From the NCBI RefSeq assembly GCF_037023735.1, contig NZ_CP146069.1, positions 599,501-663,500 of the forward strand: DNA of 64,000 nucleotides, written 5' to 3'. The notes under the pieces are model-generated. The model searched no databases. It saw nothing but the letters and a program-made list of their open reading frames with translations, and was not told the DNA's origin. The position numbers were made by a program, and so were the translations under genes. This DNA comes from Roseovarius sp. S88 (GTDB lineage: Bacteria; Pseudomonadota; Alphaproteobacteria; Rhodobacterales; Rhodobacteraceae). Positions 33,009 through 51,820 of this stretch are shown here, piece after piece (within the stretch, counting starts at the first letter, position 1; every line of letters begins with the position of its first letter).

Positions 33009-33055
33009 ACGATCCGACTCAAAGGAGTGGCTGCGCCACACAGGTTTGCGTGAAT

Positions 33056-33103
33056 GGGGGCCAGCCCCCAAACCCCCGGAATTTTTTCGGCAAAAAGAAA
33101 TGA
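33056..33103. repeat. GC-rich intergenic element before membrane protein gene
   Basis: GGGGCCAGCCCC forms a short palindrome followed by AAACCCCCGGAATTTTTTCG and GCAAAAAGAAATGA. The second half resembles the element at 17704-17738 (CTCCGG, T-run, GCAAAgAgAAa). Its end overlaps the start codon of the next gene, so the A-rich tail acts as leader. Confidence 0.5.
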
Positions 33104-34485
33104 GAGCGCTTGGTCTTTTGACATTGCTGTTGGTGCCATTGGCCACCCTGGCCTCTGCGCATGCATCAGAGCAGGGGTTTGTGCTTCTGTTGCCCACGGA
33201 TATTTACATCATGGCTGGTGTTGCCACCGTGGCTTTGACTGTTGTGGTTCTTGCACTTCTACCGGCCAAGGCAGGACACGGAGTGTTTCGCAGTTTGCCT
33301 ATGACACCTGTCCCGTCCCTCGGGGCGCGGCATGTCACCAGCCTGCTTTCAACGCTGCTTTTGGCTTTCCTGATCTGGCGCGGGTTCACCGGATCGGGCG
33401 ATCCTCTGTCGAACCCGATGCCGTTATTCATGTGGACGGTCTGGTGGGTGGGGCTTGTGTCTTTGCAAGGCCTCGTCGGCAACCATTGGCGATGGACCAA
33501 CCCTTGGACCGGCATTGCGGCGTTGCTGGCCAAGGCAACAGGGTTGCGGGCACCGTTTCGCTATCCGCGCAAGCTTGGGCATTGGCCGGGGGTTGTCATT
33601 TTTCTCGGGTTTGCCGCGTTCCTGTTGACCGATCCAGCACCGGCCGATCCTGCACGGCTGGCCGCATACGCAGGGTTCTATTGGTATACAGCCCTTTTGG
33701 GCGTGGTGCTCTTTGGGCCTGCCTGGTTGGTGCGTGGCGAGGCGCTGACCCTATTGATGCGCGCCTATGGGCGTATGGGGCTGTGGGGGCGCGCAAGGGG
33801 TCGATTGGCTTTTGGCCTTTGGGGTTGGCAGGTTCTGGCAAGACCCGCACCGGCGCTTGGATTGGCTGTGCTGATGGTGGTTCTGTTGGGCACTGGCAGC
33901 TTTGACGGGCTGAATGAGACTTTTTTCTGGCTGGGCTTACTGGGCATCAATCCATTGGAATTTCCGGGTCGTTCGGTTGTGATGACGCAAAACCTGGTCG
34001 GGTTGGTGGTGTCCAATCTGGCACTTCTGCTTGCTTTTGCAATTTGCCTTTGGCTGGGGGAGCGGTTGGCGGGTATGCGGCGCCCATTGCGAGAGGTGTT
34101 TTGCCTTTATGCGCCGTCGATCCTGCCGATCGCGCTGGGCTATCACATCGCGCACTATCTGACGTCCTTCATGGTAGATGGGCAGTACGTCATCAAAATC
34201 GCCAATGATCCGCTCGGCAACGGCATGGCATTGCTGGGCCTGGAGGATTTCTATGTCACGACCGGATTCTTCAACACGCCCGGCACGGTCAAGGCCATCT
34301 GGCTGAGCCAGGCCGGAGCCGTTGTCATCGGCCATGTTGTCGCGATCCTTCTGGCCCATGCGCTGGCCATGCGCAGCGGGGTGGATACGCGTCGTGCTTT
34401 GTTGGGACAGGCCCCTCTTGCGGCGTTCATGGTGGCCTATACATTCTTCGGCCTTTGGCTTCTGGCCTCGCCACGCGGGTTGTAA
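33100..34485 (+). CDS. Polytopic membrane protein with signal sequence, unknown function
   Basis: A 461-residue protein with an N-terminal signal-like segment (MRALGLLTLLLVPLATLASA) and about ten further hydrophobic spans. Notable conserved-looking parts are the Trp-rich TVWWVGL, GNHWRWTNPWTG loop (about residues 137-148) and a late HIAHYLTSFMVDGQYV stretch with paired histidines. The start at 33100 is chosen to place the signal at the terminus. It precedes the ABC importer by 86 bases on the same strand. I do not recognise the family with confidence; a transporter or membrane-bound enzyme is possible. Confidence 0.75.
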   Translation: MRALGLLTLLLVPLATLASAHASEQGFVLLLPTDIYIMAGVATVALTVVVLALLPAKAGHGVFRSLPMTPVPSLGARHVTSLLSTLLLAFLIWRGFTGSGDPLSNPMPLFMWTVWWVGLVSLQGLVGNHWRWTNPWTGIAALLAKATGLRAPFRYPRKLGHWPGVVIFLGFAAFLLTDPAPADPARLAAYAGFYWYTALLGVVLFGPAWLVRGEALTLLMRAYGRMGLWGRARGRLAFGLWGWQVLARPAPALGLAVLMVVLLGTGSFDGLNETFFWLGLLGINPLEFPGRSVVMTQNLVGLVVSNLALLLAFAICLWLGERLAGMRRPLREVFCLYAPSILPIALGYHIAHYLTSFMVDGQYVIKIANDPLGNGMALLGLEDFYVTTGFFNTPGTVKAIWLSQAGAVVIGHVVAILLAHALAMRSGVDTRRALLGQAPLAAFMVAYTFFGLWLLASPRGL

Positions 34486-34571: not shown

Positions 34572-35858
34572 ATGACCAAGTTGATCAACGGAACCACACG
34601 CCGCGGGGCGCTCAAGACCTTGGCCGGGGCTGCGGCAGGCGCGACGGCTCTGCCGCTTTGGGCGCGGTATGCGCAGGCCTCAAGCTCGGAGCCGATCAAG
34701 ATCGGATTCCAGCAGCACAGCACCGGCATCGGCGCGGCCTATGGGCGCTGGTACGGGCGCACCACAGAGGCTGCGGTCAAACTGATCAATGAAGGCGGCG
34801 GCATAAATGGTCGTTTGGTCGAGCTGATAGCCGAAGATGATGGCACCGATCCCAAACGCGGCGCCGAAGTGGTCGAGAAGTTCGCGACGCAGCACAATTG
34901 CGATGTCGGCTTCGGCACGCTCTTCAGCCATGTCGTCATTGGATCTTCGCCACGTGCAGGAGAGCTGAAACTGCCCTATTTTGTGGTCTCTGAGGGCCAC
35001 CATGTCGCCTCAGGCATGCTCAACCGCTACACGCTACAGCCGGGCATCACGGATGTGAAAAGCCAGGTGCAGGCGATGGCCCCCTATGTGTCGGAAAACC
35101 TGGGCAAGAAGGTTACGATGATCTTTCCGGACTTTGCCTTTGGTCATGATCACCGTGACTTCTTCTCGGCGGCGATTGAGGCGCAGGGCGGTGAGGTTCT
35201 GGAAAAGATCGCCATCCCGCCAACTGAGACCTCCTTCACCAAATACTTCCCGCAGATACCGCGCGAAACCGAGGTGCTCTACCACGTGATGGTCGGCCCG
35301 GCTGTTCTGACCTTTGTGAAGGAACTGGGTGAATTCTTCGGCCCCTCAAGTCCGGCAATCTTCGGATTTATCGACAGCCTGGAGGCCGTGGATATCGCCA
35401 GCCCGGGTCTGGAGTTCCTGGAAGGCACGTATTTCTGGGAAGGAAATCCGCGCTATGCGCAGGCCGATCAGACAGAGCATGATAAATTCTTCCGCGCGGC
35501 TGTGGGTGTCGATGACAACGGAGCTTCAGTGAGCGATCCGACGGATGTGTCAACCTATGCTCATATGTTTGGCTGTTGGGAGACTTTGCACGTGATCAAA
35601 CATGGCATGGAGAATTCCGGATATCAGGGACCGGGCGACCGCGCCAAACTGATCGAGGCGGTGGAGGCTTTGTCCGACATGCCAGAAGGACGCGCGCACC
35701 CCCAAGGAGCCAAGGTATTCAACGGCAAGACGCATCAGGTCTTTGGGCATCAATATATCAGCCGCGTGGAAGAAGGGAAACTCGTGCGGGTTCATACGAC
35801 GTCTATCGAAGACACGCTCTATCCCGATGAAGTGGATTACACCGCGCAACCTCTTTGA
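34572..35858 (+). CDS. LIV-type ABC transporter substrate-binding protein
   Basis: A 428-residue periplasmic binding protein of the branched-chain amino acid/urea/amide class (type I fold). A Tat-like signal (TTRRGALKTLAG, residues 8-19) is followed by IKIGFQQHSTGIGAAYG and NEGGGINGRLVELIAEDDGTD-type family segments. It begins after AGGGAGA and heads a five-gene importer set with two permeases and two ATPases. Similarity in layout to UrtA/AmiC suggests an amide-, urea- or amino-acid-like ligand. The downstream redox genes suggest that the imported compound is then degraded. Confidence 0.88.
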   Translation: MTKLINGTTRRGALKTLAGAAAGATALPLWARYAQASSSEPIKIGFQQHSTGIGAAYGRWYGRTTEAAVKLINEGGGINGRLVELIAEDDGTDPKRGAEVVEKFATQHNCDVGFGTLFSHVVIGSSPRAGELKLPYFVVSEGHHVASGMLNRYTLQPGITDVKSQVQAMAPYVSENLGKKVTMIFPDFAFGHDHRDFFSAAIEAQGGEVLEKIAIPPTETSFTKYFPQIPRETEVLYHVMVGPAVLTFVKELGEFFGPSSPAIFGFIDSLEAVDIASPGLEFLEGTYFWEGNPRYAQADQTEHDKFFRAAVGVDDNGASVSDPTDVSTYAHMFGCWETLHVIKHGMENSGYQGPGDRAKLIEAVEALSDMPEGRAHPQGAKVFNGKTHQVFGHQYISRVEEGKLVRVHTTSIEDTLYPDEVDYTAQPL

Positions 35859-35935
35859 CCCCCTAAAGCGCTTGTCGAACCGGTGCATCGGCATCGGTTC
35901 CGACGCGCGGAGTGACGCCTGGTGCTGATCTAGCG

Positions 35936-36862
35936 ATGGAATTTGGACCTCACCTTTTGCTGGCCACGCTCGAAGGCGCGGTTACGGCCGCCGTTCTGGC
36001 ACTGACGGCGGTGGGCCTCAGCCTTGTGTTCGGTGTTATGCGCGTGGTCAACATCGCCCATGGTGAGTTCTACATGCTGGGGGCGGTGATCGCCTGGTAT
36101 GTGGCGCATATGATGGGCGGGCACCCGGCCTTGGGGTTCTTTGCGGCGCTGGTTCTGGCCCCGCTGCTGGTCGGGGCAATAGCGGTTTTGGCAGACATCA
36201 CCATCCTCAAGCGCCTCGATTATGATCCCGAGCGCACAATCGTGGCCACGATTGGTCTGCTCTATATCATCCAGCAACTCACCCTGATGACCTACGGCCC
36301 CGAGGCGCGCCCGGTCGAGGCCCCGTTCAACACTCGTATCGCGCTTCCGTGGTTTGAATGGGGCGAAGACGGGTTTCAGTTTTACTACCCCTGGGGCCTG
36401 TCGACGACATCTTATAAACTTGCGGTAATCGGTGCCGCGGCCGCAGTGCTATTGGGCGTCTGGGCGATGATGGCACGCACAAAGATCGGCCTCCTGATGC
36501 GCGCCACGCAAGCCGATCGCGATATGGCGCTGGCCTTTGGGATTCCGGTAGAGCGGGTCTACGCGGTGGTCTTTGGCATCGGTGCTGGGCTGGCGGCGTT
36601 GGGCGCGGTTCTGATCGTACCCATCCAGCAGGCGCATTACCTGATGGGGGCGGACCCGCTCTTGCTGGCCTTTATTGTGGTGATCATCGGTGGATTGGGA
36701 AGTCTGCCCGGCACGGTCCTGGCGGCATTGTTCATTGGCCTGTCGGACGGCATTATCTCGGTCTTCTTCTCACCGACACTGGCCAAAATCCTGGCGACGT
36801 TGCTTGTCGGACTGGTGCTTGTCTGGCGGCCTCAGGGCCTCTTTGGGACACGCACCGCATGA
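35936..36862 (+). CDS. LIV-type ABC transporter permease (LivH/UrtB-like)
   Basis: A permease of about 308 residues with around eight membrane spans, containing the typical LALTAVGLSLVFGVMRVVNIAHGEFYMLGA segment (split over residues 15-45) and a C-terminal IGGLGSLPGTVLAALFIG. ATG 35936 is used; a GTG at 35912 in the same frame is an alternative and neither has a strong ribosome binding site. Its stop overlaps the start of the second permease (ATGA at 36859-36862). Forms the membrane channel with the next gene product. Confidence 0.87.
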   Translation: MEFGPHLLLATLEGAVTAAVLALTAVGLSLVFGVMRVVNIAHGEFYMLGAVIAWYVAHMMGGHPALGFFAALVLAPLLVGAIAVLADITILKRLDYDPERTIVATIGLLYIIQQLTLMTYGPEARPVEAPFNTRIALPWFEWGEDGFQFYYPWGLSTTSYKLAVIGAAAAVLLGVWAMMARTKIGLLMRATQADRDMALAFGIPVERVYAVVFGIGAGLAALGAVLIVPIQQAHYLMGADPLLLAFIVVIIGGLGSLPGTVLAALFIGLSDGIISVFFSPTLAKILATLLVGLVLVWRPQGLFGTRTA

Positions 36863-37803
36863 GCGCGTCAGGCCGAGTCATTGCCCTGCATCTGGGCTTG
36901 CTGGTTCTGCTTTTTGCGCTGCAATTCATTTTGCCCGCCTATCACCATGGCAACCTGGCGCGGATTATGGTGCTGGCCACCTATGCGGTGGGATACAACA
37001 TCCTCTTTGGCTACACAGGGCTTCTCAGTCTCGGACATGCGCTTTTCTTTGCGGCGGGCATGTATGGCATGGGCCTGACAATCCAGCATATGGGCTTCAC
37101 ACCTGCGCCAGCTTTGATCGTCGGTATTGTGGCGGGTGCTATCGTGTCCGGCGCACTGGCCCTTCTGGCCCTGCGCACGGTGGGCGTGTCCTTCATGATC
37201 GTCACACTCATGTTCGCGCAGGCGGGTTATCTCACAGTGCTCTACTTCGGCGAATACACCCGCGGTGACGAGGGCTTTGTGATCCAACAGGCACAGCGCA
37301 TTCTCTGGGGCATTGACCTGAGCGATGCCACCAACCGCTATTTCGCCGCCTGGGTGCTGTTCTCGGTGTCCTTTGTCATCTCGCTCTGGCTGGTTCGAAG
37401 CCCCTTTGGTCGCACGCTTGTCGCCATCCGCGAAAACGAAGAGCGCGTGCGCATGCTGGGCTATGACACCTTTAAACATAAACTCGCAGCTATGGTCATT
37501 TCCGGCACAATATCGGCGGCGGCAGGGGCGTTTTACGGGCTGCTCTTTGGCTATGCGGGGGCCAGCTTTGCCTCGGTGCAATATTCGATCTTCCCGCTCC
37601 TGTGGGTGCTCCTGGGAGGGGCTGGCACAGTGCTGGGTCCGTTTGTCGGCACGCTCTTCATGTTCTACCTCATCGACCTCAGCTCTGGCGTGACCTCGGC
37701 CTATCTGCTGATCGCCGGTCTGGCGCTGGTACTCTTGACGCTTTTCGCGCCGCAAGGCCTCACCGGAGAACTGCGTCGACGTATCTGGAAGAACCTGCCA
37801 TGA
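36859..37803 (+). CDS. LIV-type ABC transporter permease (LivM/UrtC-like)
   Basis: A 314-residue second permease subunit with eight to ten spans; YAVGYNILFGYTGLLSLGHA near residue 42 is the family hallmark, as is the later RTLVAIRENEERVRMLGY coupling loop. Coupled by ATGA overlaps to the first permease and to the ATPase gene (37800-37803). Confidence 0.9.
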   Translation: MSASGRVIALHLGLLVLLFALQFILPAYHHGNLARIMVLATYAVGYNILFGYTGLLSLGHALFFAAGMYGMGLTIQHMGFTPAPALIVGIVAGAIVSGALALLALRTVGVSFMIVTLMFAQAGYLTVLYFGEYTRGDEGFVIQQAQRILWGIDLSDATNRYFAAWVLFSVSFVISLWLVRSPFGRTLVAIRENEERVRMLGYDTFKHKLAAMVISGTISAAAGAFYGLLFGYAGASFASVQYSIFPLLWVLLGGAGTVLGPFVGTLFMFYLIDLSSGVTSAYLLIAGLALVLLTLFAPQGLTGELRRRIWKNLP

Positions 37804-38507
37804 CTATTTTGTCGACGCGAGGACTGAGCAAATCCTTTGACGGGCTGCAGGCGGTCACGAATGTTGATTTTGACCTGCCACAAGGCGAAGTACGCGCGTT
37901 GATTGGGCCCAATGGCGCAGGCAAAACTACGCTGGTTGGCATGATCTGTGGACGCATTGAACCCACGTCTGGTCGCGTTCAGTTTGATGGTCAGGATATC
38001 ACCAGCCTTCCAGCCCATGCCCGGATCATGCGTGGCATGGCCTACACGTTTCAGATCACATCAGTCTTTGCCCGGCTGCCCGTCACCGAAAACGTGGCGC
38101 TCGCTGCGCGGCGGAGGTTGACCGGAGGCGCAGTGGACAGCGCTGTGGAGAATGCACTTGCGCGCGTGGGGCTGACTGATGAGGCACATGAAGAGGCGGG
38201 CAACCTCAGCTACGGCCACCAGCGGCTCTTGGAAATTGCCATGGGCCTCGCGCAATCACCCCGCCTGTTGATCCTGGATGAGCCAACACAGGGGCTTTCC
38301 GAAGGGGAAATTGACGATTTCAAAGCGCTGATCCGGGAATTGGCAGGCGATACCACAATCCTGCTGATTGAACACAACATGAATGTCGTCATGGAAACCG
38401 CTGACCAGGTCAGTGTGCTGAACTTCGGCGAAATTCTGGCCGAAGGTACACCGCAGGAAATTCACGAAAACGCCGCCGTGCAGGCCGCTTATCTGGGGAC
38501 CGGGTGA
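37800..38507 (+). CDS. LIV-type ABC transporter ATP-binding protein (LivG-like)
   Basis: A 235-residue ATPase with Walker A GPNGAGKT near residue 38, the Q-loop in YTFQITSVF, a LSYGHQRLLEIA signature (LSxGxxR variant typical of LivG/UrtD), Walker B LLILDEPTQGLS, and H-loop IEHNMNVV. The start at 37800 is the ATG in the permease stop; an upstream frame from 37602 is not used. TGATG overlap links it to the next ATPase. Confidence 0.92.
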   Translation: MTILSTRGLSKSFDGLQAVTNVDFDLPQGEVRALIGPNGAGKTTLVGMICGRIEPTSGRVQFDGQDITSLPAHARIMRGMAYTFQITSVFARLPVTENVALAARRRLTGGAVDSAVENALARVGLTDEAHEEAGNLSYGHQRLLEIAMGLAQSPRLLILDEPTQGLSEGEIDDFKALIRELAGDTTILLIEHNMNVVMETADQVSVLNFGEILAEGTPQEIHENAAVQAAYLGTG

Positions 38508-39202
38508 TGCTTGAGCTTCGTAAGATCAACTCCGGCTATGGCGCGGCTCAGGTCTTGCGGGATGTGTCTTTGAGTGTCGCACCTGGCGAAATCCTCTGTC
38601 TCATGGGGCGCAACGGGGCGGGCAAAACCACCACGATGCAGACCATCATGGGGCTGCTTCCGCTCATGTCCGGTGAGGTTTTGCTGGACGGCAAGGATGT
38701 GGGCAAATTGCCCCCTCATGAGGTGCCGCGCGCCGGGATTGGCTATATCCCGCAAGGACGGCGGCTCTTTACCGGCCTCACCGTGGCGCAGAACCTCGAA
38801 GTCGGGCTACAGGTGCGCAACTCGGACAGGGCTGTGCTGGACGGGGTACTGGAGCTTTTCCCGCGTCTACGTGAGCGCATGGATCAACCGGCGCAAACCC
38901 TCTCGGGCGGCGAACAGCAAATGCTGGCCACGGCCCGCGCCTTGTGCATTGAACCGAAGGTTTTGCTGCTGGATGAACCAACCGAAGGGCTTCAGCCCTC
39001 TATGATCGAAGCCATCCGTCAGGTGGTTGTCAAAATGCGCGAGGCCGGGGTGGCCATCCTTTTGGTGGAACAACGGATTGAGGCGGTTCTGTCGGTGGCT
39101 GACCGCGTTGCGTTTATTGAAAACGGACGCAATGGCGAAACCATGACGGTCGAAGCCCTGCGGGCCGAGCCTTCTATCATTGACCGATATGTGGGTGTCT
39201 GA
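38507..39202 (+). CDS. LIV-type ABC transporter ATP-binding protein (LivF-like)
   Basis: A 231-residue ATPase, second of the pair. Walker A GRNGAGKT, signature LSGGEQQML, Walker B LLLLDEPTEGLQ and H-loop VEQRIEAVL are present in order. ATG 38507 overlaps the previous stop. It completes the importer set. A 108-base gap separates it from the molybdenum hydroxylase genes on the same strand; a TTGACA at 39249-39254 lies in it, but no matching -10 box at normal spacing was found. Confidence 0.92.
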   Translation: MLELRKINSGYGAAQVLRDVSLSVAPGEILCLMGRNGAGKTTTMQTIMGLLPLMSGEVLLDGKDVGKLPPHEVPRAGIGYIPQGRRLFTGLTVAQNLEVGLQVRNSDRAVLDGVLELFPRLRERMDQPAQTLSGGEQQMLATARALCIEPKVLLLDEPTEGLQPSMIEAIRQVVVKMREAGVAILLVEQRIEAVLSVADRVAFIENGRNGETMTVEALRAEPSIIDRYVGV

Positions 39203-39310
39203 GGGTTGGATTTGAGTATTTGGAGAACAGTGAAGGCCATGTGCTTTGTTGACAGGTCAAAGGCCGCTGCCGCACGATTGTTTATGTGAGGAAGTGAAAA
39301 GGGATACCGT

Positions 39311-40162
39311 TTGAGCCTCTATCACCGACCCGAGACGTTGAACGACGCGCTGGCGCTTTTGCAAAGCGGCGAGATGCGCATTGCGGCAGGGTGCACGGAT
39401 CTTTTTCCGGCGACCGAGGCAAGAGCATTGTCAGGTCCGATCATGGACATCACCAACATCTCGGACCTCACAGGCATCTCGGAAACAAAAGATGGCTACA
39501 GGATCGGTGCGGCGACCACGTGGAGTGATGTGATCAAGGCCGATCTGCCACCGGCTTTTGGTATGCTCAAGGAGGCGGCACGCGAAGTGGGTTCGGTGCA
39601 AATCCAAAATGCAGGTACTGTGGCTGGCAATCTTTGCAATGCATCTCCCGCCGCCGATGGCATGCCCTGCTTGCTGGCATTGGATGCAACGGTTGAGCTG
39701 GCCTCTACGTCAGGGCGCCGGATGCTTGCACTGAGCGATTTTATCACCGGGCCGCGTCAAACAGCCCTTGCGCCAGATGAGATGGTCGTCGCGCTGCATG
39801 TGCCTCAAAGCGCATGCTCTGGTGTGTCGCGCTTTCGCAAGCTGGGCGCGCGCAAGTATTTGGTGATTTCCGTTGCCATGGTCGCCGCGCGTTTGGGTGT
39901 CGTGAATGGCCAGATCGAAACGGCAGCAATTGCGGTCGGCTCCTGCAGTGCGGTGGCACAGCGGCTCTCAAGTTTGGAAAAGGGGCTTGTCGGGCACGAG
40001 GCCACGCCGAATGTGCTGGAACAAGTGAATGTTGCACGTGTCTCGGAGGCGTTATCGCCCATCGACGACATCCGCGCCGATGCCGCCTATCGCTCAGAGG
40101 CCGCAACAGAACTGGTGAAACGCACACTTGAGGACCTGTTACACACCGAGGCGCTGGTATGA
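39311..40162 (+). CDS. Molybdenum hydroxylase FAD-binding (medium) subunit
   Basis: A 283-residue CoxM/XdhB-type FAD subunit of the xanthine dehydrogenase family. The IAAGCTDLFPA region near residue 24 and VGSVQIQNAGTVAGNLCNASPAAD (about 96-119) form the two FAD pyrophosphate-binding segments typical of the family. It begins with TTG at 39311, supported by AAAAGGGA upstream, and its stop overlaps the next ATG (40159-40162). It relays electrons between the Fe-S clusters of the next protein and an acceptor. Confidence 0.88.
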   Translation: MSLYHRPETLNDALALLQSGEMRIAAGCTDLFPATEARALSGPIMDITNISDLTGISETKDGYRIGAATTWSDVIKADLPPAFGMLKEAAREVGSVQIQNAGTVAGNLCNASPAADGMPCLLALDATVELASTSGRRMLALSDFITGPRQTALAPDEMVVALHVPQSACSGVSRFRKLGARKYLVISVAMVAARLGVVNGQIETAAIAVGSCSAVAQRLSSLEKGLVGHEATPNVLEQVNVARVSEALSPIDDIRADAAYRSEAATELVKRTLEDLLHTEALV

Positions 40163-42849
40163 ACCGCCCTCTGGACACCATGACCTTGACGGTCAACGGT
40201 CAGGCATACAGCCTTCCAGCGGACCCGGCCCGCAGATTGAGCGAGGTTTTACGCGACGGGTTAGGCCTACGCGGCACCAAGGTGGGCTGTGACGCAGGCG
40301 ATTGCGGGGCGTGCACGGTTCTGGTCGATGGCGCACCGATTTGCGCCTGTCTCACGCCACTGGCGCAGGTCGAGGGCTGTCATGTTGAAACGGTGGAGGG
40401 TCTTCAAGACACAGCACTGCAAGAGGCTTTCCTGCGCCATGGCGCGGCGCAATGCGGCATTTGCACACCCGGCATGGTGATGGCCGCGACGGCCTTTCTG
40501 CGTGAGACCAAGGCACCAACACGGGCGGGGGTGGAAGAGGCCCTCGGCGGCGTGCTGTGCCGATGCACCGGATATACTCGGATCATTGATGCGGTGCTGG
40601 ATATCGGGCAATCCGGTTTGCACAACATGCCTGATGCAGGCCATGCGGTAGGCGCAGATGTACCACGTCTCGACGGTGCGCCAAAGGTGGCAGGCTCCGA
40701 AGTCTTTGGCGCGGACCACCAGATGACCGATGCACTTTTGGTTCGCGCCGTGCGCGCGCCCAAAGCGCCTATGGAGTTCACCTTTGGTGACATTGGCGCA
40801 TGGGCGGCGTCACAGAACGTCCATGTCTTCACCGCCGCCGATATTCCCGGACAGAACCGGTTTGGCGTCATCCCCGCCTTTGCCGATCAGCCTGCCCTGG
40901 CAGAGGCCCGCGTACGCCTGCAGGGCGAGGCGGTGGCGCTGGTGGCCGGACCGCCCGAGCAGATTGAACAGCTTGACCTCAAGAGCTTTCCAATCACCTG
41001 GACCGCCACGCCGGACACAGAGCCCGTACATGCCGCGCACCCTGATAACATCCTGATTACCGGCAAAGTGCGCCGCGGGGAGGCCAAAAAAGCCCTGTCG
41101 CGCGCCGCGCATGTAGCCAAAGGGGCGATGCAAACGCCCTATGTCGAGCACGCCTATATCGAGCCTGAGGCCGGCATCGCCTGGATGGACGGGGACACGC
41201 TTGTCATTCAGGCCTGCACGCAGGCCCCTGTGATGGACCGCGACGAAACCGCGCTGATCCTTGGCCTGCCGGAGGACAAGGTCCGCATCATTCCCGCCGC
41301 AACCGGCGGCGGCTTTGGCTCCAAGCTTGACATCTCGCTGCAACCTCTCATCGGCCTTGTCGCGCTCAAGACCGGAAAACCTGCACGCATGATCTATTCC
41401 CGCTCTGAAAGCATGGCCACGACCACCAAACGCCACCCATCGCAAATGACAGGCCAGATCGGCTGTGACAAAACAGGCCGCATCACCGGCATGGTGTTTG
41501 ACGGGGATTTCAACACCGGGGCCTATGCAAGCTGGGGGCCGACCGTCTCGGGGCGCGTGCCGGTGCATGCCTCGGGGCCGTACTACATCCCGAACTACCA
41601 TGCCGAGGCGCGGGCCAACTATTCGTATCAGCCAATTTCCGGCGCATTCCGGGGGTTCGGTGTGCCCCAGGCCGCGATCCTGCAGGAATCGATCTTTGAC
41701 GACCTTGCCGCAAAACTCGGCATGGACCGGCTCGCCTTTCGTCAGCTCAACGCCTTGCAAGACGGGCAAGACACCGTCTGCGGACAGACGCTTCACGGGG
41801 TCGGGATCGCCGCCTGTCTGGAGGCCCTAAAGAACCCGTGGACCGCCGCTTTGGCCCGCGCCGAGGCTGCAAACGCAAAGGGCGGCATCCTGCGCCACGG
41901 CGTTGGAGTGGCCTCCTGCTGGTACGGCTGCGGCAACACCGCCATTGCCAACCCGTCCACCATCCGCGTGGGCCTGACGGCGGAGGGCGCGCTGTGCTTG
42001 CATCAAGGGGCCGTGGATATCGGGCAAGGCTCCAACACCGTGATCCCACAGATCTGCGCAGACGCGTTGGGCCTGCCCCTGGCGCAGTTTCAAATCATCG
42101 GCGCAGACACCGCCCTGACGCCGGATTGCGGCAAAACCTCTGGTTCACGCCAGACCTATGTCACCGGAAGTGCGGCCCTGCGTGCCGGACAGGCGTTGCG
42201 CGCACGTATACTGTCGATGACCAATATGGGCGCAGAGGCAAGCCTGTTGCTGCAAGGCACCACATTGATCGTCAGCGATGGCACCGCGGAACGTAAGATC
42301 GCCTTGCAGGATCTCGAGGCAGATGCGCATGGATATGTCCTCTCTGCCGAAGAAACCTATGATCCACCCACGCAGCCACTTGATGAAAATGGTCAGGGCG
42401 CGCCTTATGCGGTTTACGGCTATGGCGCGCAGATTGCCGAACTCTCGGTGGACATGCGCCTTGGCACAGTCAAGGTGAGCAAGATCACCGCCGCCCATGA
42501 TCTGGGGCGCGTGATCAATCCCGGCCTTGCCGAAGGGCAGGTGCATGGCGGCATCGCGCAGGGTCTTGGTATGGCGCTGATGGAAGTGTTTATTCCCGGC
42601 CGTACCGAGAACTTGCATGACTACCTGATCCCAACCACAGGCGACATGCCGCAGATCGAAACCATCTTTGTCGAGGTCCCTGACCCCGAAGGCCCCATGG
42701 GGGCCAAAGGCCTTGGCGAACACGTTCTCATCCCCACGGCTCCGGCCATCCTGAATGCCATCCGTCATGCCACCGGCGCGTTGGTCACGCAGTTGCCAGC
42801 CCTGCCGCATCGCGTGTTGGCGGCGATCAAAGAGGCGCAGGACAAATGA
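40159..42849 (+). CDS. Molybdenum hydroxylase with fused 2Fe-2S and Mo-binding domains
   Basis: An 896-residue protein fusing the small and large subunits of the xanthine dehydrogenase family. The N-terminal 2Fe-2S domain has C44, C49, C52 and C64 (plant-ferredoxin type), then C99, C102, C134 and C136 for the second cluster. From about residue 155 the molybdopterin part shows TGGGFGSK, the SGAFRGFGVPQA block, VDIGQGSNT and the C-terminal catalytic GAKGLGE glutamate. This composition predicts hydroxylation of a heteroaromatic carbon or aldehyde with water as oxygen source. Substrate unknown; downstream genes suggest a nicotinate-like or other N-heterocycle. Coupled to both neighbours. Confidence 0.9.
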   Translation: MNRPLDTMTLTVNGQAYSLPADPARRLSEVLRDGLGLRGTKVGCDAGDCGACTVLVDGAPICACLTPLAQVEGCHVETVEGLQDTALQEAFLRHGAAQCGICTPGMVMAATAFLRETKAPTRAGVEEALGGVLCRCTGYTRIIDAVLDIGQSGLHNMPDAGHAVGADVPRLDGAPKVAGSEVFGADHQMTDALLVRAVRAPKAPMEFTFGDIGAWAASQNVHVFTAADIPGQNRFGVIPAFADQPALAEARVRLQGEAVALVAGPPEQIEQLDLKSFPITWTATPDTEPVHAAHPDNILITGKVRRGEAKKALSRAAHVAKGAMQTPYVEHAYIEPEAGIAWMDGDTLVIQACTQAPVMDRDETALILGLPEDKVRIIPAATGGGFGSKLDISLQPLIGLVALKTGKPARMIYSRSESMATTTKRHPSQMTGQIGCDKTGRITGMVFDGDFNTGAYASWGPTVSGRVPVHASGPYYIPNYHAEARANYSYQPISGAFRGFGVPQAAILQESIFDDLAAKLGMDRLAFRQLNALQDGQDTVCGQTLHGVGIAACLEALKNPWTAALARAEAANAKGGILRHGVGVASCWYGCGNTAIANPSTIRVGLTAEGALCLHQGAVDIGQGSNTVIPQICADALGLPLAQFQIIGADTALTPDCGKTSGSRQTYVTGSAALRAGQALRARILSMTNMGAEASLLLQGTTLIVSDGTAERKIALQDLEADAHGYVLSAEETYDPPTQPLDENGQGAPYAVYGYGAQIAELSVDMRLGTVKVSKITAAHDLGRVINPGLAEGQVHGGIAQGLGMALMEVFIPGRTENLHDYLIPTTGDMPQIETIFVEVPDPEGPMGAKGLGEHVLIPTAPAILNAIRHATGALVTQLPALPHRVLAAIKEAQDK

Positions 42850-44299
42850 CCGAACGCCCGGCCAAAGAGGATAAGATCCGCTGCGATGCCTGCCCGGTCA
42901 TGTGCTACATCGCGCCCGGCAAAATCGGGGCCTGTGACCGCTACGCCAATGAGAATGGCAAGATCATCCGCTGTGATCCTCTGACCGTGCTCGACCGCCG
43001 CATTGAAACGGGCGGCGAAATCCGGCCCTTCCTCACATCCGACTGGGACGGAGAGGTAATTGGCACCGAGGATGTCTTTGTCTCCGGTGTCGGGTCCGGC
43101 ACCACCTATCCCGACTATAAACCTGCCCCCTTCATCGTCAGCCGCGAGGTTGATGGCGCGGATTTCGTCACCGTCGTGACCGAAGCGATCTTTTCCTATT
43201 GCGGCGTGAAAGTGAAAATCGACACCGACCGGCATCTGGGCCATGAAACCGCTGTGGTTCGCGCAAAGGGCGAGGCAATCGGCCATGTCACCACGTCGGA
43301 ATACGGCTCTCAAATGCTCTCGCTTGGGGGCGTGGATCACCTCACAGGCGGCTCCAAATCCGAAGGGCGCGCCACCTGCGACGCGCTTTTGCGCCTGTGC
43401 AACCGCGAGGCGGTCGAGCTGACCATCGACGACGGGGCCACCGTGATCGTGCAGGCGGGCCACCCCCCATTGTCAACGGCGAAACCGAAGCACGCATGCG
43501 CGTCGGCTGCGGGTCTGCCACAATCGGCATGTTCGCCTCGCAATGGCAGGGTCTGGTGGATGAAGTTGTTGTCGTGGATGACCACATCACCGGCGTCGTC
43601 AGCGAACATCAGGCGGGCAAAGTGTTGGGCTGGCCGGACACCGGCATCCGCATCAAGGGCCATCGCTCAACCCCGGGGCGCTACTTCAAGGTGGCGCAAC
43701 CTGGTCAGGGCTGGGGTGGCACGGATATCGACGATCCGCTCAACATCCTCAACCCGTGGCTTGAAAAGAAGGGCGCGCGCGCGGGGCTTACATTGCTCAT
43801 GGTCTCCACCACAGGCGAACACGCGGCCTATTACGTTCTGGATGACAATCTCGAACCACAGGCCAAGCCGATGCCCGATGCCCTTCAACCCTCTGTCGAT
43901 CTGATCGCCGAAAACTGCGAACCCGCCCTCTGCACGGTGATGTTCCAAGCCGGGGCCGGGGGCTCGCTGCGCTCTGGTGTCACGCAAAACCCGGTCAAGC
44001 TCACCCGCTCGGTTCAGGCCATGACCACACGTGTGACCTGCGGCGGAGAGCCTGCTTATGTCTGGCCTGGAGGTGGGATCACCCTGATGGTTGATGTGCT
44101 CAATATGCCCGATGGCTCTTTTGGCTATGTGCCAACACCAGCCCTGGTTGCCCCTCTGGAATTCACGCTCAGCCGGGAAGATTATCGCACACTCGGTGGC
44201 CATGACGCCGCGATCCGAAGCTTGAGCGATATCCTCGAGACAGGCGGCGAATATGGCAGTGCCGTGCGCGTCGTCTCCCCCAAGACAGGGGACGCGTGA
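42846..44299 (+). pseudogene. 6-hydroxynicotinate reductase-like protein, split by one-base frameshift
   Basis: Two overlapping frames together make one protein of about 485 residues that resembles 6-hydroxynicotinate reductase, which reduces the hydroxylated pyridine ring in nicotinate fermentation. The first part (42846 to about 43463) opens with Fe-S type cysteines C13, C16, C20 and C30 (RCDACPVMCYIAPGKIGACD). The second part, in another frame, continues with PPIVNGETEARMRVGCGSAT and runs to 44299. The break falls in a run of six C at 43463-43468; one more C restores HPPIVNG. It may be a sequencing error, a real mutation or slippage. Overlaps both neighbours by four bases. Confidence 0.8.
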
Positions 44300-45141
44300 T
44301 GCAAGGTCCGCAAATCGGATTTCTGCCCGATGGGCGTCGGATGCACCTGCATCACGGTCCCATCGACATGATTGTCGATGTCAAAGGTCCAGGTCGCGCC
44401 ATGGCACTGAGACGCGCCGCCTCGCGGTTCGAAACCCTGCTGGATGAGCTGGTCCGCGACCTACCCCGCCTGCGCCAGCCAAGCGGGGACACGCCCGCAA
44501 CAGCTCCTGCGCTCCATATGGTGGCTGCCACAGCGCCCTTTGTCCCGACATTCATCACCCCGATGGCCGCTGTCGCAGGGGCAGGGGCCGACACAATTCT
44601 AGAAGCGATTTGCAATGGCGAAGGCGTCACCAAAGCCTATGTGAACAATGGCGGCGACATCGCCTTTCACCTCACGGGCAAGCAAACTGTCACTGCCGCC
44701 GTGGCCACCCATCCCGCCGCCACAGTCACCGTCGCGGCAGATGACGCGACACGCGGCATCGCCACCTCCGGCTGGCGCGGGCGCAGTCACTCGCTTGGTA
44801 TCGCCGATAGCGTCACCGTTCTGGCCTGCAATGCGGCCGTGGCCGACGCAGCGGCAACGCTCATCGCCAACAATGTGGACCTGCCAGACCACGTCGCCAT
44901 CACGCGCATACCCGCCACCGATCATCACCCCGACAGTGATCTTGGCACGCGCCTAGTCACAACCGCCGTCAGGCCACTTGACCCAAGCGACATCGCCACG
45001 GCCCTCGCTGCCGGAGCGGCCTATGCACACACCCTTTGCAATCGCGGCCTTATTCACGCGGCCTACATCTCCCTGCAAGGCGCAACACGCGTTGTGGGTC
45101 ATCTCTCTTTGAGCCAACAGAAAGTTCCCGAACATGCCTGA
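44299..45141 (+). CDS. UPF0280 family protein
   Basis: A 280-residue protein of UPF0280 (COG2122), which is related in fold to ApbE-like flavin transferases. Supporting segments are MVAATAPFVPTFITPMAAVAG, then GAGADTILEAI, then AYVNNGGDIAFHLTG (an NNGGD-type motif as in ApbE-like proteins). The first codons are ATG ATG at 44296 and 44299; both are possible, and the earlier one overlaps the preceding TGA (44297-44299). Role not established; regular presence near 6-hydroxynicotinate reductase-like and AA_synth genes suggests a shared pathway (recalled, not checked). Confidence 0.83.
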   Translation: MQGPQIGFLPDGRRMHLHHGPIDMIVDVKGPGRAMALRRAASRFETLLDELVRDLPRLRQPSGDTPATAPALHMVAATAPFVPTFITPMAAVAGAGADTILEAICNGEGVTKAYVNNGGDIAFHLTGKQTVTAAVATHPAATVTVAADDATRGIATSGWRGRSHSLGIADSVTVLACNAAVADAAATLIANNVDLPDHVAITRIPATDHHPDSDLGTRLVTTAVRPLDPSDIATALAAGAAYAHTLCNRGLIHAAYISLQGATRVVGHLSLSQQKVPEHA

Positions 45142-45715
45142 CTTCACCCTGCGCAAAACGGCGCTTTTCGTCGAAGACATCCACCACGATGGCGGACCAG
45201 TGGCCGACAAACCCCGCCGTCGCGCCGCGCTTGCCGCCTTGGTGAAAAACCCGTTTGCAGGCACCTATGTGGACGACCTGCAATCCGCTATGGATGATCT
45301 CAAACCCCTCGGCCTGATGATGACCGACCAGCTCATCGACGCCATGGGTGGGCTGGAGGACATCGATGGCTATGGCAAAGCCGCTATGGCCGGTGAGGCC
45401 GGAGAACTGGAGCACACAGCCCTCTGGCACGTACCCGGCGGCTATGCGATGCGCGCCCGTCTGGGAGAGGCCAAAGCCATTGTGCCCTCGTCCATGAAAC
45501 AAGGTGGTCCAGGCACGCGCATCGACGTGCCCTTGGGCCATATCAACGCGGCCTATGTGCGCAGTCACTTTGACGGTATGGAAGTGGGCCTGCCCGATGG
45601 CCCCCGTTCCGATGAACTGCTCTTTATCCTCGCCATGAGCCGCGGCGGGCGCATCCATGACCGGATGGGTGGCCTGACCGTGGAGGAAGTCCAAGGCGAG
45701 GACGGTTTGCGGTAG
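45134..45715 (+). CDS. AA_synth (DUF1185) family protein
   Basis: A 193-residue protein of the amino acid synthesis family (PF06684, formerly DUF1185). RKTALFVEDIHHDGG at the start, GKAAMAGEAGELEHTALWHVPGG in the middle and SMKQGGPGTRIDVPLGH are the conserved blocks. The family has structures but no clearly proven reaction. It overlaps the UPF0280 gene by eight bases and is the last gene of the molybdenum hydroxylase cluster. It is probably a hydrolase- or lyase-like enzyme of the same route, but this is inference from position. Confidence 0.85.
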   Translation: MPDFTLRKTALFVEDIHHDGGPVADKPRRRAALAALVKNPFAGTYVDDLQSAMDDLKPLGLMMTDQLIDAMGGLEDIDGYGKAAMAGEAGELEHTALWHVPGGYAMRARLGEAKAIVPSSMKQGGPGTRIDVPLGHINAAYVRSHFDGMEVGLPDGPRSDELLFILAMSRGGRIHDRMGGLTVEEVQGEDGLR

Positions 45716-47589: not shown

Positions 47590-49695
47590 TCAGTCGAAAC
47601 TGCCGAACGGAATGTAGCGTACGGATGTTCCCTGCGTGATCTTCGCCGCGCCATCTGGCAATTCGACCAAACCATCGGCCCAGCTTAACCCACTGATGCG
47701 CCCCGACCCTTCGGATTTGAACACCTCGACCTGACCGTCCCGGACCCGCGCGCGCAGATACTCGCGCCGCCCCGGCTTCTTGGTTTTCTCAAACGCCGCT
47801 GGCAGGTCAAACCCCTGCGGATCTTCCCACGTTTGCCCCGCCAGAACCCGCATCGCCGGGCGCGCAAAGATCAACGTGCAGACAAGTGCTGCCACCGGAT
47901 TGCCCGGCAGGCCAAAGACCGGCGTGCCGTCCCACATCCCCAGGGCCAGGGGCCGCCCGGGTTTCAGCGCAATCCGCCACTGCGCCATCGCCCCAGCCTC
48001 ATTAAGCAGGGCCGACACGTGGTCTTCATCCCCCGCTGACGCTCCGCCGGAGGTCAGGATCACATCTGCCTCACGCGCCGCTTGGTCCAACGCGGTGCTC
48101 AAGGCATCGCGATCATCCGCAACGCGTCCAAGATCAATTGTCTGATACCCAAACTGCTTTGCCAGCCCCAAAAGCATGGGCCTGTTGGCATCATAAATCT
48201 GACCATCTCTGGCCGCCTCGCCGGGGTCCACAAGCTCATCCCCGGTGGAAATCACCGCCACCTTGAGCGGTTCATAGACCGACAGGTCTGCAATCCCCGT
48301 CGCCGAGGCCAGCGCCAAATCCGCTGGCGTCAGGCAGCGACCTTGCGACAGGATGACCGCACCAGCACGCACATCTTCCCCGGCGTTGCGCGTATTTGCG
48401 CCGCGCTTGATACCTTCTCTAAACGCAATTTCCCCGGTGCCCAGCGTGACGTCTTCTTCCAAAATCACTGTGTCCACACCATCGGGCAGTTCAGCCCCGG
48501 TCAGCACGCGAATGGCAAAACCCTCTGGCACGGACCCATCGAAAGGCACCCCTGCCGCCGAGCGTCCCTCGACAAGGGGCAGAACCTGATCCCCTTGGCC
48601 AAGGCAATCAAACGCAAACCCATACCCATCTACTGCGGTGTTAGCCTCAGGCGGGTTGGAGCGCCGGGCCACCACATCTTCGGCCAGCACCCGACCCAGC
48701 CCGTCCTGCAAGGGAACATGCCGCGTCCCGACAACCGGATGCAGGCGCTGACTCAACATCTCAAGAGCCTCGTCCACAGGAGTCCAGTCCACGCCCGCAG
48801 GCAGCGCAAAGCAATCATCTTTGAGCGGAGGCGGTTGCAAAACGCCTCGCGCCGCCGCAATCAACTTGTCCTCGTGACCCAGACCCATGATCCATCCTTC
48901 CTCAGGGGCATCCACATCCAGCATGGCGTCGAGATCGTCCGCTGACAAGCGTGACACCGCACGCGCCAGCAGGCGCACCTGCGCTGCATCACGAATGCCG
49001 CCTTTGGCTTCGGCCTCCTTGACCACCGAATTGATCAGACCGGGCCAAATCTCGATAAAGCTGATGGGACGATTGAGCGGCTCAAGGGGCCAGACGGCAA
49101 CCTGTCCGTCAAAGCGTCGCCGCAACCGATTGAGCACCGGCAGCCCGGTCAGCACCTGACCACCCACAGCCCCCGCACCGCCCACCTGCCAACAAGTAAA
49201 GGCCCCCTTGGCTAGAGCCTCGGCCCGCCGCCACTCCGTCATGCCGTGACCGTCGCGCGTGTCCTTGCGCGGCAAATGCACGATGTCGCGGTTGCGCAGC
49301 CCGTTGAACCAAAATGGCCCGACACCTGGAAACATCCTGTTAATCTGCCCCGCCACATCGAACCGATTATTGGCCTTGGGCGTGTCTTCAACATGCGCCT
49401 CCAGCCAATCCCAAACGGCAAAGACATCCACCTCGCCGGTCAGGGCTTCGGCGAACCCATTGGGATAGCCAAAGGGAAAATCAAATCCGATGCAAAGCCG
49501 GTCACCAGCTTTCAAAGCGTTCTCAATAAGCTCAGCAATCGCCTCTTCTGCTTCGGTCCGATTGCGCAAGTATCTCGGTGGCTCGCACACCCCATCGCGG
49601 GCACACCCCATCCAGATCGCGTCTTTCTTGGGCCGAGGTCCGGTGTCATTCCCACCAGACCAATCAACAATCGCAACGCGATCAAACCGTGTCAC
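47590..49695 (-). CDS. moeA: Molybdopterin molybdotransferase MoeA with N-terminal extension
   Basis: A 701-residue protein, far longer than ordinary MoeA (about 400). Residues about 305-701 are MoeA: PVVGTRHVPLQDGLGRVLAEDV, NTAVDGYGF (variant of the usual DNSAMDGYA), STGDEL, TSGGASAGDEDHV and VFGLPGNPVAA. This part inserts molybdate into molybdopterin. Residues 1-290 form a separate domain with VDWSGG (10-15) and GFDFPFG (70-76), suggestive of an RNase H-like/DUF429-type fold; its function is unknown. The gene is first to stop in the minus-strand set with mobB, mobA and fdhD, overlapping mobB by four bases. Confidence 0.87.
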   Translation of the reverse strand: MTRFDRVAIVDWSGGNDTGPRPKKDAIWMGCARDGVCEPPRYLRNRTEAEEAIAELIENALKAGDRLCIGFDFPFGYPNGFAEALTGEVDVFAVWDWLEAHVEDTPKANNRFDVAGQINRMFPGVGPFWFNGLRNRDIVHLPRKDTRDGHGMTEWRRAEALAKGAFTCWQVGGAGAVGGQVLTGLPVLNRLRRRFDGQVAVWPLEPLNRPISFIEIWPGLINSVVKEAEAKGGIRDAAQVRLLARAVSRLSADDLDAMLDVDAPEEGWIMGLGHEDKLIAAARGVLQPPPLKDDCFALPAGVDWTPVDEALEMLSQRLHPVVGTRHVPLQDGLGRVLAEDVVARRSNPPEANTAVDGYGFAFDCLGQGDQVLPLVEGRSAAGVPFDGSVPEGFAIRVLTGAELPDGVDTVILEEDVTLGTGEIAFREGIKRGANTRNAGEDVRAGAVILSQGRCLTPADLALASATGIADLSVYEPLKVAVISTGDELVDPGEAARDGQIYDANRPMLLGLAKQFGYQTIDLGRVADDRDALSTALDQAAREADVILTSGGASAGDEDHVSALLNEAGAMAQWRIALKPGRPLALGMWDGTPVFGLPGNPVAALVCTLIFARPAMRVLAGQTWEDPQGFDLPAAFEKTKKPGRREYLRARVRDGQVEVFKSEGSGRISGLSWADGLVELPDGAAKITQGTSVRYIPFGSFD

Positions 49696-50198
49696 GGCCC
49701 GCTCGCATCCAGACCCACATCGCGCAGAATGAAATCCGCAATGGCGCGTGTGTCATCCAGATCGAAAACCGGGCGATCCAGATCAAGGTCAACATCACTG
49801 GCCACCGCCCGAATGGTTGGGTCATCGGGCGCAATAAGCGGATTGCCCGGCTCTTGACGATGCGCTTCGACCTTGGGGTGAACGTCGCGCTTATACCCTT
49901 CGATCAGGATCAAATCGACCGGCGCGATCTTTGTTAGTAGAAACTCAAGCGTCGGCTCGTCCTCGTCCCGCAGTTCATGCATAAGCGCGAAGCGATTGCG
50001 CGAGGCCAGCAGCACCTCGGTCGCACCCGCCACGCGGTGGCGATGGCTGTCTTTGCCCTCATGGTCCACGTCAAAGGAATGATGCGCGTGCTTGACTGTC
50101 GACACCGAATAGCCCCGCCCGGTGATCTCGGCCACAAGCCGCTCCATCAATCCAGTTTTGCCCGCGTTCTTCCACCCCACAACGCCGTAAACCTTCAT
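49692..50198 (-). CDS. mobB: Molybdopterin-guanine dinucleotide biosynthesis protein B
   Basis: A 168-residue P-loop protein: Walker A GWKNAGKTG at 8-16, HAHHSFDVDHEGKDS (GTP/metal region) and LILIEGYK Walker B-like motif. MobB assists MobA in attaching GMP to molybdopterin. It overlaps mobA (50195-50198) and moeA, consistent with a single operon. Confidence 0.92.
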   Translation of the reverse strand: MKVYGVVGWKNAGKTGLMERLVAEITGRGYSVSTVKHAHHSFDVDHEGKDSHRHRVAGATEVLLASRNRFALMHELRDEDEPTLEFLLTKIAPVDLILIEGYKRDVHPKVEAHRQEPGNPLIAPDDPTIRAVASDVDLDLDRPVFDLDDTRAIADFILRDVGLDASGP

Positions 50199-50836
50199 AC
50201 CTGCTCCCCCAGCATTGCCTGCGCCCGCCTCAGATCCTCAGGCGTGTTCACATTGAAAAACGGATCGCCGCCGCCGGAAAACACCGCCTCACGGCCACCA
50301 TGCTTTTCGGTCCAGAGCACCACCTTGCGCAACCCGCCTTCAAGCGCGGCACGCAGGTCATCGCGTAACGCCACAGGCCACAGTCCAAAGGTCGGATGGC
50401 GAATGAGACCCGAGCGGCTCATGGATTTGGTCTCTGTCTCGCCGCGCGGCGTTGCCGCAAGCACCAAAGGGTGTTCCATGCCCTCGGACTCTGCCAGAAG
50501 TGTCTCAACCAGGTTTGTGGGAAAAAACGGCGTGTCTGCCGCGACGCTGACAACCGCATCTGCCCCCTGATCCGCCGCCCAGTCCAGCCCGGCCAGCACC
50601 CCCGCCAACGGCCCGGGGTATTCAGGAATGGAGTCCGGCACAACCGGGAGGTCAAAGCCATCAAACCGCGCAGGATCCCCATTGGCACTAAGCGCCAAGG
50701 CCCCGACCTGTGGCCGCAGCCGGTCCTTCACCTGATCCAGAAGCGTGCCCTCGCCCAGCGGCAAAAGACATTTGTCTCCGCCACCCATCCGCGTGGCCAG
50801 CCCGCCTGCCAAAATCACTCCAACCAGCTTTGGCAT
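50195..50836 (-). CDS. mobA: Molybdenum cofactor guanylyltransferase
   Basis: A 213-residue nucleotidyltransferase. GVILAGGLATRMGGGDKCLLPL at the N terminus is the nucleotide-binding loop of the MobA family; the later VSVAADTPFFP block is the metal-binding region. It links GMP to Mo-molybdopterin to make Mo-MGD, used by DMSO reductase/formate dehydrogenase-type enzymes. The ATG at 50836 overlaps the fdhD stop (TGATG). Confidence 0.92.
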   Translation of the reverse strand: MPKLVGVILAGGLATRMGGGDKCLLPLGEGTLLDQVKDRLRPQVGALALSANGDPARFDGFDLPVVPDSIPEYPGPLAGVLAGLDWAADQGADAVVSVAADTPFFPTNLVETLLAESEGMEHPLVLAATPRGETETKSMSRSGLIRHPTFGLWPVALRDDLRAALEGGLRKVVLWTEKHGGREAVFSGGGDPFFNVNTPEDLRRAQAMLGEQV

Positions 50837-51741
50837 CACGCGCCTGACGCCGCAGATTTCCGGCGATGCTTCTTATCCTCATCAGGCACGTCTGCAGGAT
50901 TCACATCCCGGTCCAGCCGTTCCTCTCCAGAAAGGCAAACAAACCGCTTACCCCGCATCCGCCCGATCAGCGTCAGCCCCACCTCGCGGGCAATCTCAAC
51001 ACCCCAGGCCGTGAACCCCGAGCGCGAGGCCAGCACGGGGATTCCCATCAGCGCTGTCTTGATCACCATCTCCGAGGTGAGCCGCCCGGTGGTGTAGAGT
51101 AGCTTGTCCTCTGCCCTCACACCCTCCGACAGCATCCAGCCGGCAATCTTGTCCACCGCATTATGCCGCCCCACATCCTCCATATAGACCAGCGGTCGCG
51201 CACCCTGACAGAGCACCGTGCCGTGAATCGCGCCCGCCTCAAGATAAAGCGACGGCGTGCGGTTGATCTTGGAGGCAAGCTGATAGAGGTCCGACGTTCG
51301 CACCGAAACCTCGGGCAGAACCATCCCCTCAAGCCCCTCCATCATATCGCCAAAGACCGTCCCCACCGCACAGCCACTGGTGCGCGTCTTTTTCTTCAGC
51401 TTTTCTTCATAGGTCGTCTGCCCATCCGTGCGCACCACGACGGTCTCAAGATCTTCGTCATAATCCACCCCTGTCACGGTCTCGCCATCCCTCAGCATGC
51501 CCTGATTGCGTAGAAACCCAAGCGCAAGGTAATCGGGGTAATCCCCAATCGTCATGGCGGTGACGATTTCCTGGCCATTGAGAAAAATGGTCAAAGGGCG
51601 TTCTTCCACCACGGAAATCTCAACCGACTGCCCCTCGTGATCATGCCCCATCACCGCACGCGTCAGCCGCACGGCCTTTGGATCCGGCGCAATGATATAG
51701 TCCGGCAACGCGTCTTCGACCGCCAAAAGGGTTCCTCCCAT
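50836..51741 (-). CDS. fdhD: Formate dehydrogenase accessory sulfurtransferase FdhD
   Basis: A 301-residue FdhD protein that transfers sulfur to the Mo cofactor for formate dehydrogenase. Conserved segments include EERPLTIFLNGQEIVTAMT, EDVGRHNAVDKI and YTTGRLTSEMV. The sulfur-relay loop reads TSGCAVG, with a single cysteine where E. coli has CxxC. The start at 51741 is chosen since the 20 extra residues to 51801 look non-native. It is the first gene of the fdhD-mobA-mobB-moeA operon. Confidence 0.9.
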   Translation of the reverse strand: MGGTLLAVEDALPDYIIAPDPKAVRLTRAVMGHDHEGQSVEISVVEERPLTIFLNGQEIVTAMTIGDYPDYLALGFLRNQGMLRDGETVTGVDYDEDLETVVVRTDGQTTYEEKLKKKTRTSGCAVGTVFGDMMEGLEGMVLPEVSVRTSDLYQLASKINRTPSLYLEAGAIHGTVLCQGARPLVYMEDVGRHNAVDKIAGWMLSEGVRAEDKLLYTTGRLTSEMVIKTALMGIPVLASRSGFTAWGVEIAREVGLTLIGRMRGKRFVCLSGEERLDRDVNPADVPDEDKKHRRKSAASGA

Positions 51742-51820
51742 ATTCCGAGCCGAAGCTCGCACAAAACGAAGGTAGTCTAAGGCTTTGGTCCGGCGACGCA
51801 ATGCACCAAATTTTGTGAGG

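Follow-up and report, generated by a model that had tools for sequence, protein, structure and literature searches.

The first enzymes of the reductive route of nicotinate degradation were reportedly defined in Eubacterium barkeri by Alhapel and co-workers in 2006. The route runs through tetrahydro-oxonicotinate (THON) and uses a bifunctional enamidase (PMC9304392). Gene clusters with 6-hydroxynicotinate reductase (HNR) are described for nicotinate degradation in four Alphaproteobacteria, namely Azorhizobium caulinodans, Bradyrhizobium, Rhodopseudomonas and strain SG-6C, and the HNR of SG-6C is 42% identical to the E. barkeri enzyme (PMC3511419). A locus of this kind lies in a stretch of 64,000 nucleotides from the 3.64 Mb genome of Roseovarius sp. 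S88 (G000:C1:599501-663500; the window, whose own positions are used below). On one strand it codes for a LIV-type ATP-binding cassette (ABC) importer, a two-gene molybdenum hydroxylase, an HNR-like protein, a UPF0280 protein and an AA_synth protein, a composition read from the sequence in an earlier note and confirmed by family matches. The locus is real, widespread, catabolic and of a known kind. It shares with the reductive nicotinate cluster a molybdenum hydroxylase gene beside HNR, and differs from it in that no enamidase was detected in the window genome, where a HyuA/HyuB homologue is present but unlinked. The xanthine dehydrogenase (XDH)-like two-gene hydroxylase is a further difference, and the LIV-type importer is of another kind than that of many enamidase clusters tabulated here.

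With a probability of about 0.68, we consider the cluster to serve the import and breakdown of nicotinate or a close pyridine carboxylate through the reductive 6-hydroxynicotinate/THON route, in a variant without enamidase. The substrate would be taken up by the LIV-type importer and converted by the molybdenum hydroxylase to a 6-hydroxy compound, whose ring HNR would reduce, with electrons from ferredoxin and ferredoxin-NADP reductase, to a cyclic lactam (THON). Opening of the lactam would fall to an ATP-dependent HyuA/HyuB lactamase, encoded at an unlinked site in the window genome, and the amino-enoate would hydrolyse to 2-formylglutarate, which would enter central metabolism. UPF0280, a protein of predicted ApbE fold, may attach the flavin to HNR, and AA_synth may act at or after the formyl-dicarboxylate stage. 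The evidence fits the idea of the earlier note that an N-heterocycle is taken up, hydroxylated and reductively opened; the candidate undescribed catabolic system of that note is largely refuted on its own terms, since a known nicotinate-type pathway largely accounts for the genes (PMC3511419), one step being replaced by inference. Neither the replacement by HyuAB nor the role of UPF0280 was found described in the literature searched, which covers few subscription papers. A more ambitious formulation holds that the reductive breakdown of nicotinate comes in two interchangeable forms, with enamidase or with an ATP-dependent HyuAB lactamase, and that UPF0280 serves as an ApbE-fold flavin transferase dedicated to the maturation of HNR alone; it falls somewhat short of an even bet. 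If it is true, UPF0280 and one HyuA/HyuB subfamily would gain functions, a flavin transferase with a single target would be tied to a ring reductase for which no solved relative was found by sequence, and the means by which many marine and soil Alphaproteobacteria may recycle vitamin B3-type rings would come into view.

HNR (42846-44299) is spread over two open reading frames (ORFs), 42846-43904 and 43397-44299, and the match switches frame near a run of six C (43463-43468). The protein search scored at least 7999 candidates, all passing, and the full-length homologues listed are single frames of about 475-492 residues. The nearest of these, P0007 and P0008 (Roseovarius rhodophyticola), both of 484 residues, are 97% and 96% identical over residues 1-205; P0008 is 92% and 96% identical to the two window pieces and carries the NCBI name 6-hydroxynicotinate reductase. 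The window protein belongs to that family, its frame being broken in the assembly. HNR split over two frames was also seen in another genome (G016:C1:2969814-2971228).

The neighbourhood comparison proposed in the earlier note shows that HNR, UPF0280 and AA_synth do co-occur elsewhere. Among 398 genomes of the phylum HNR is found in 32, and UPF0280 exceeds its cut-off in exactly those 32, two additional matches being weak and below it. Coordinates place UPF0280 at most 0.6 kb from HNR and on the same strand in all 32 genomes. AA_synth is present in 59 genomes, including 31 of the 32 with HNR, and in each of these 31 it lies next to the HNR and UPF0280 pair. Other HNRs in these genomes share 61-78% identity with P0008. 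Named genomes were scanned as well, and the best 80 loci of at least 591 relatives were taken, many of them incomplete at their ends; UPF0280 is present in 78 of these loci, AA_synth in 67, HyuA in 19, HyuB in 18, ferredoxin-NADP reductase in 14 and enamidase in none. The arrangement is far from chance, since Roseovarius, other Rhodobacterales, SAR116 and Mesorhizobium have the genes in the same order; a MarR gene often separates the importer from the hydroxylase or follows AA_synth. HNR also occurs in 26 of 72,556 plasmid records, 8 of which were examined for their neighbourhoods. Three SAR116 clusters (L171, L174 and L177) combine HNR with a divergent UPF0280 (32-43% identity where aligned) and a second molybdenum hydroxylase.

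These clusters part at the proposed lactam-opening step. Outside the window, 28 loci were compared, from 20 of the 32 HNR genomes and from the 8 plasmids. The linked hydrolase is an enamidase-type amidohydrolase in 10 of them and HyuA or HyuB in 12; none has both and six have neither. The amidohydrolase of plasmid cluster L060 (P0128) is an enamidase by sequence, matching PDB 2vun with an E-value of 1e-106. Orthologues at 61% identity or more to P0128 occur in 17 of the 398 genomes, all with HNR (17 of the 32), and relatives of 42-44% are found in two genomes without HNR. HyuA of the HNR-linked kind (at least 61% to P0127, next best 45%) is likewise found in 17 of the 32. Only two HNR genomes (G123 and G194) hold both hydrolases and none holds neither; an overlap this low has a hypergeometric probability of 2.4e-7 when genomes are counted and of 7e-4 for 16 genera, with kinship ignored. 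HyuA above 40% was absent from the 80 genomes searched among the 366 without HNR (near kin chosen first, the other 286 left unsearched). In G123 and G194 an enamidase gene stands beside two AA_synth genes on a contig other than that of the sole HNR match (G123:C11:55970-58293 and G194:C11:29790-32149).

The best NCBIfam model for P0127 is the caprolactamase alpha subunit CapA (NF050156), at 481.5 bits against an equivalog cut-off of 1000. Caprolactamase, itself one of the HyuA/HyuB enzymes, is an ATP-dependent lactam hydrolase; the proposed lactam here is THON. On an HNR tree of 39 rows, with the two rows holding both hydrolases left uncounted, the hydrolase label needs three changes, and starred branches force three. 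Hydroxylase and hydrolase kinds also mix over the 28 loci: XDH-like with Hyu in seven, XDH-like with enamidase in three, NicAB (a name from plasmid annotation) with Hyu in three and NicAB with enamidase in seven, one of the latter showing NicA only, at the locus end; two HyuA loci have no visible hydroxylase and six loci no linked hydrolase. As all four pairings occur, the intermediates are probably shared, and the window type is therefore read as the same route.

Enamidase, with orthologues in 17 of the 32 HNR genomes, left only a 64-residue match (E 1.9e-6) in a search of the whole window genome, which falls outside the 19 of 398 that gave an enamidase match at 1e-60. HyuA of the HNR-linked kind is encoded at G000:C1:434282-436309 on the minus strand, about 163 kb before the window start, and is 65% identical to P0127; other HyuA matches reach 35-36% over full length, or 30% over short stretches. 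A hyuB homologue adjoins it, 79% and 72% identical over two pieces in two frames. The earlier note was right that the other pathway genes are missing from the window, and for enamidase this extends to the genome, but HyuA is there. We infer that enamidase is replaced by an unrelated ATP-dependent HyuAB lactamase.

The UPF0280 protein (44296-45141; NF003322, 323 bits, cut-off 290) has a predicted ApbE fold over 200-213 residues at 12-19% identity. Among 47 UPF0280 members, 17 match the ApbE family model PF02424 at E-values up to 1 (best 6.3e-5), and A183, D184 and T188 are invariant in all 47 and align with the AD...T of ApbE, its AD-x-x-x-T metal-site motif. The GGD and SG positions of ApbE are kept too. 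With this likeness to the ApbE/Ftp/FmnB flavin transferases in fold and motifs, UPF0280 is proposed to be a flavin transferase for HNR, tied, unlike them, to one partner.

Several observations weigh against the assignments made above and bear on the explanations that compete with them. HNR with another substrate range is possible, and the same reductive logic applied to picolinate, isonicotinate, an N-methyl pyridinium (trigonelline, homarine) or a pyrimidine-like ring, with hydrolases that differ because their lactams differ, is unlikely. The two hydrolases are unrelated and could mirror different lactams, the importer kind varies among the 28 loci, HNRs at 61-78% identity leave room for specificity shifts, and two linked plasmid clusters carry a Rieske-type oxygenase gene (L057:12556-13626 and L060:13076-14143), whose product could N-demethylate an N-methylated pyridine carboxylate. 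Against this stand the four combinations of hydroxylase and hydrolase and the at least three switches of hydrolase on the HNR tree, and so, with reservations, do MarR regulators of HyuA-type clusters. The cluster MarRs match the 6-hydroxynicotinate sensor BpsR, which contacts its ligand through Tyr15, His23, Arg26 and His32 (PMC6837509). In seven aligned cluster MarRs Tyr15 and Arg26 are kept throughout and His32 in five, so that L056, L058 and L062, from HyuA-type clusters, keep three of the four contacts. Two more HyuA-type regulators, L057 and L059, have Asn in place of His32 and keep two, and all seven carry Tyr or Phe at the position of His23. Among PDB entries 2nnn (1.9e-34), of unstated ligand, matches the L056 regulator best, followed by BpsR (6pcp, E 2.9e-25), and the same order is found for L060 of the enamidase type. 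The contact residues are a weak guide, since NicR of Pseudomonas putida binds 6-hydroxynicotinate without them (PMC6837509), and a search of the window genome with one cluster MarR gave no match, an empty answer that shows little. On balance the residues mildly support a 6-hydroxypyridine-carboxylate inducer, HyuA-type clusters included. A place in purine degradation, with a xanthine dehydrogenase as the hydroxylase, is highly improbable for the cluster: the hydroxylase has domains of the XDH family and matches NCBIfam XdhA and XdhB, but far below the curated cut-offs (437 of 780 and 159 of 310 bits), and the constant partner is HNR, purine genes as such not having been searched for.

The nicotinate variant with HyuAB is further burdened by the site of hyuAB, unlinked to the cluster among rml sugar genes, a transposase and urocanase, and by the enamidase survey, which scored at most four candidates per genome and could miss a divergent enamidase. 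With HNR and hyuB both frame-broken in the assembly, decay of the pathway in this strain is conceivable, and the cluster would then be a relic from whose operon HyuAB has drifted; a further AA_synth copy elsewhere in the genome is broken too, there without a run of five or more equal bases. Such decay seems quite unlikely. The remaining cluster genes are open and P0007, the relative at 97%, has a full-length frame; the HNR break is probably a homopolymer error of the assembly, a first guess made because both breaks sit at C runs (seven C in hyuB) and long G/C runs are rare in this assembly. Runs of seven or more G or C number one in 123.7 kb of the window genome (the window and three stretches), nine in 128.6 kb of six Roseovarius loci and eight in 171.4 kb of eight other loci, a comparison to be read with the lower GC content of the window genome (58%, versus 61% and 64%). 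For UPF0280, the window protein scores 15.6 bits against PF02424, below the cut-off of 25.6, and the matching region of the 47 members has no invariant His corresponding to that of HxxDP, which is near-invariant in 12 ApbE sequences and presumably has a role there. The favoured flavin site of HNR, T380, is Val in two of 39 HNRs. With part of the ApbE active site missing and the candidate site not universal, UPF0280 might instead be an FAD/FMN (flavin adenine dinucleotide/mononucleotide)-binding or electron-transfer partner of HNR, which we regard as rather doubtful: its one-to-one co-occurrence with HNR and its predicted fold fit a dedicated maturation factor. Hnr is also reported to carry a covalent flavin, in the 2006 work of Alhapel.

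The genes of the module, all on the plus strand, are ordered as follows. The livK-like substrate-binding protein (34572-35858; Peripla_BP_6, PF13458, 151 bits) has homologues in 48 of the 80 named loci. After a gap of 53 bases come the BPD_transp_2 permeases (PF02653), livH-like (35912-36862) and livM-like (36859-37803), and the ATPases, livG-like (37800-38507; PF00005 and PF12399) and livF-like (38504-39202; PF00005). A gap of 108 bases precedes the hydroxylase FAD subunit (39311-40162; PF00941, 150 bits; PF03450, 54 bits), whose listed TTG start is uncertain, and the fused [2Fe-2S]/Mo subunit (40159-42849; PF00111, PF01799, PF02738, PF20256). The latter, with homologues in 78 of the 80 named loci, is under the curated cut-off of all 20 NCBIfam models listed and is proposed to be a nicotinate (pyridine carboxylate) 6-hydroxylase. 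Overlaps of 4-8 bases join the genes from livH to livF and from the FAD subunit to AA_synth, in agreement with the blocks of the earlier note. That note's gene list stands as to families; it took no account of the broken HNR frame and missed a multi-span membrane protein of unassigned family directly upstream of the importer (33046-34485, plus strand; no Pfam or NCBIfam match in profile searches). Relatives of this protein adjoin a livK homologue in 30 of the 80 named loci (membW or memb), many of which end before this place, and also in L037, L044, L056, L058 and L061, so it is likely part of the importer module. Behind the cluster, on the minus strand (47590-51801), lie MoeA, MobA-like and FdhD genes, a molybdenum cofactor set in which about 300 N-terminal residues of the MoeA ORF have no Pfam match.

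The AA_synth protein (45134-45715, plus strand; PF06684, 226.6 bits, cut-off 27) has solved relatives in PDB 3byq and 2qtp. The first structures of the family showed a chorismate-mutase-like fold, and LIV-type transporter genes adjoin its member SPO0826 (PMC2954203). PF06684-type proteins are also found in other ring-catabolic operons: HcdD belongs to a 7-hydroxycoumarin operon and is homologous to TgnF of the trigonelline pathway, which stimulates succinate semialdehyde oxidation, an effect that could not be shown for HcdD (PMC7913881). Their partner genes differ from those of the window AA_synth; a putative TgnF/HcdD-like helper at the formyl-dicarboxylate stage is our guess, made with low confidence. 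A third AA_synth copy of the genome (G000:C1:3071903-3072414) is divided between two frames although the stretch examined has no run of five or more equal bases, and is probably a true pseudogene. The second copy (G000:C1:2711849-2712373; L130:9005-14077) stands amid genes for an alpha/beta hydrolase, a luciferase-type monooxygenase, a Rieske oxygenase and an aldehyde dehydrogenase. A molybdenum hydroxylase set is close by, and this locus resembles an oxidative cluster of the trigonelline/homarine type.

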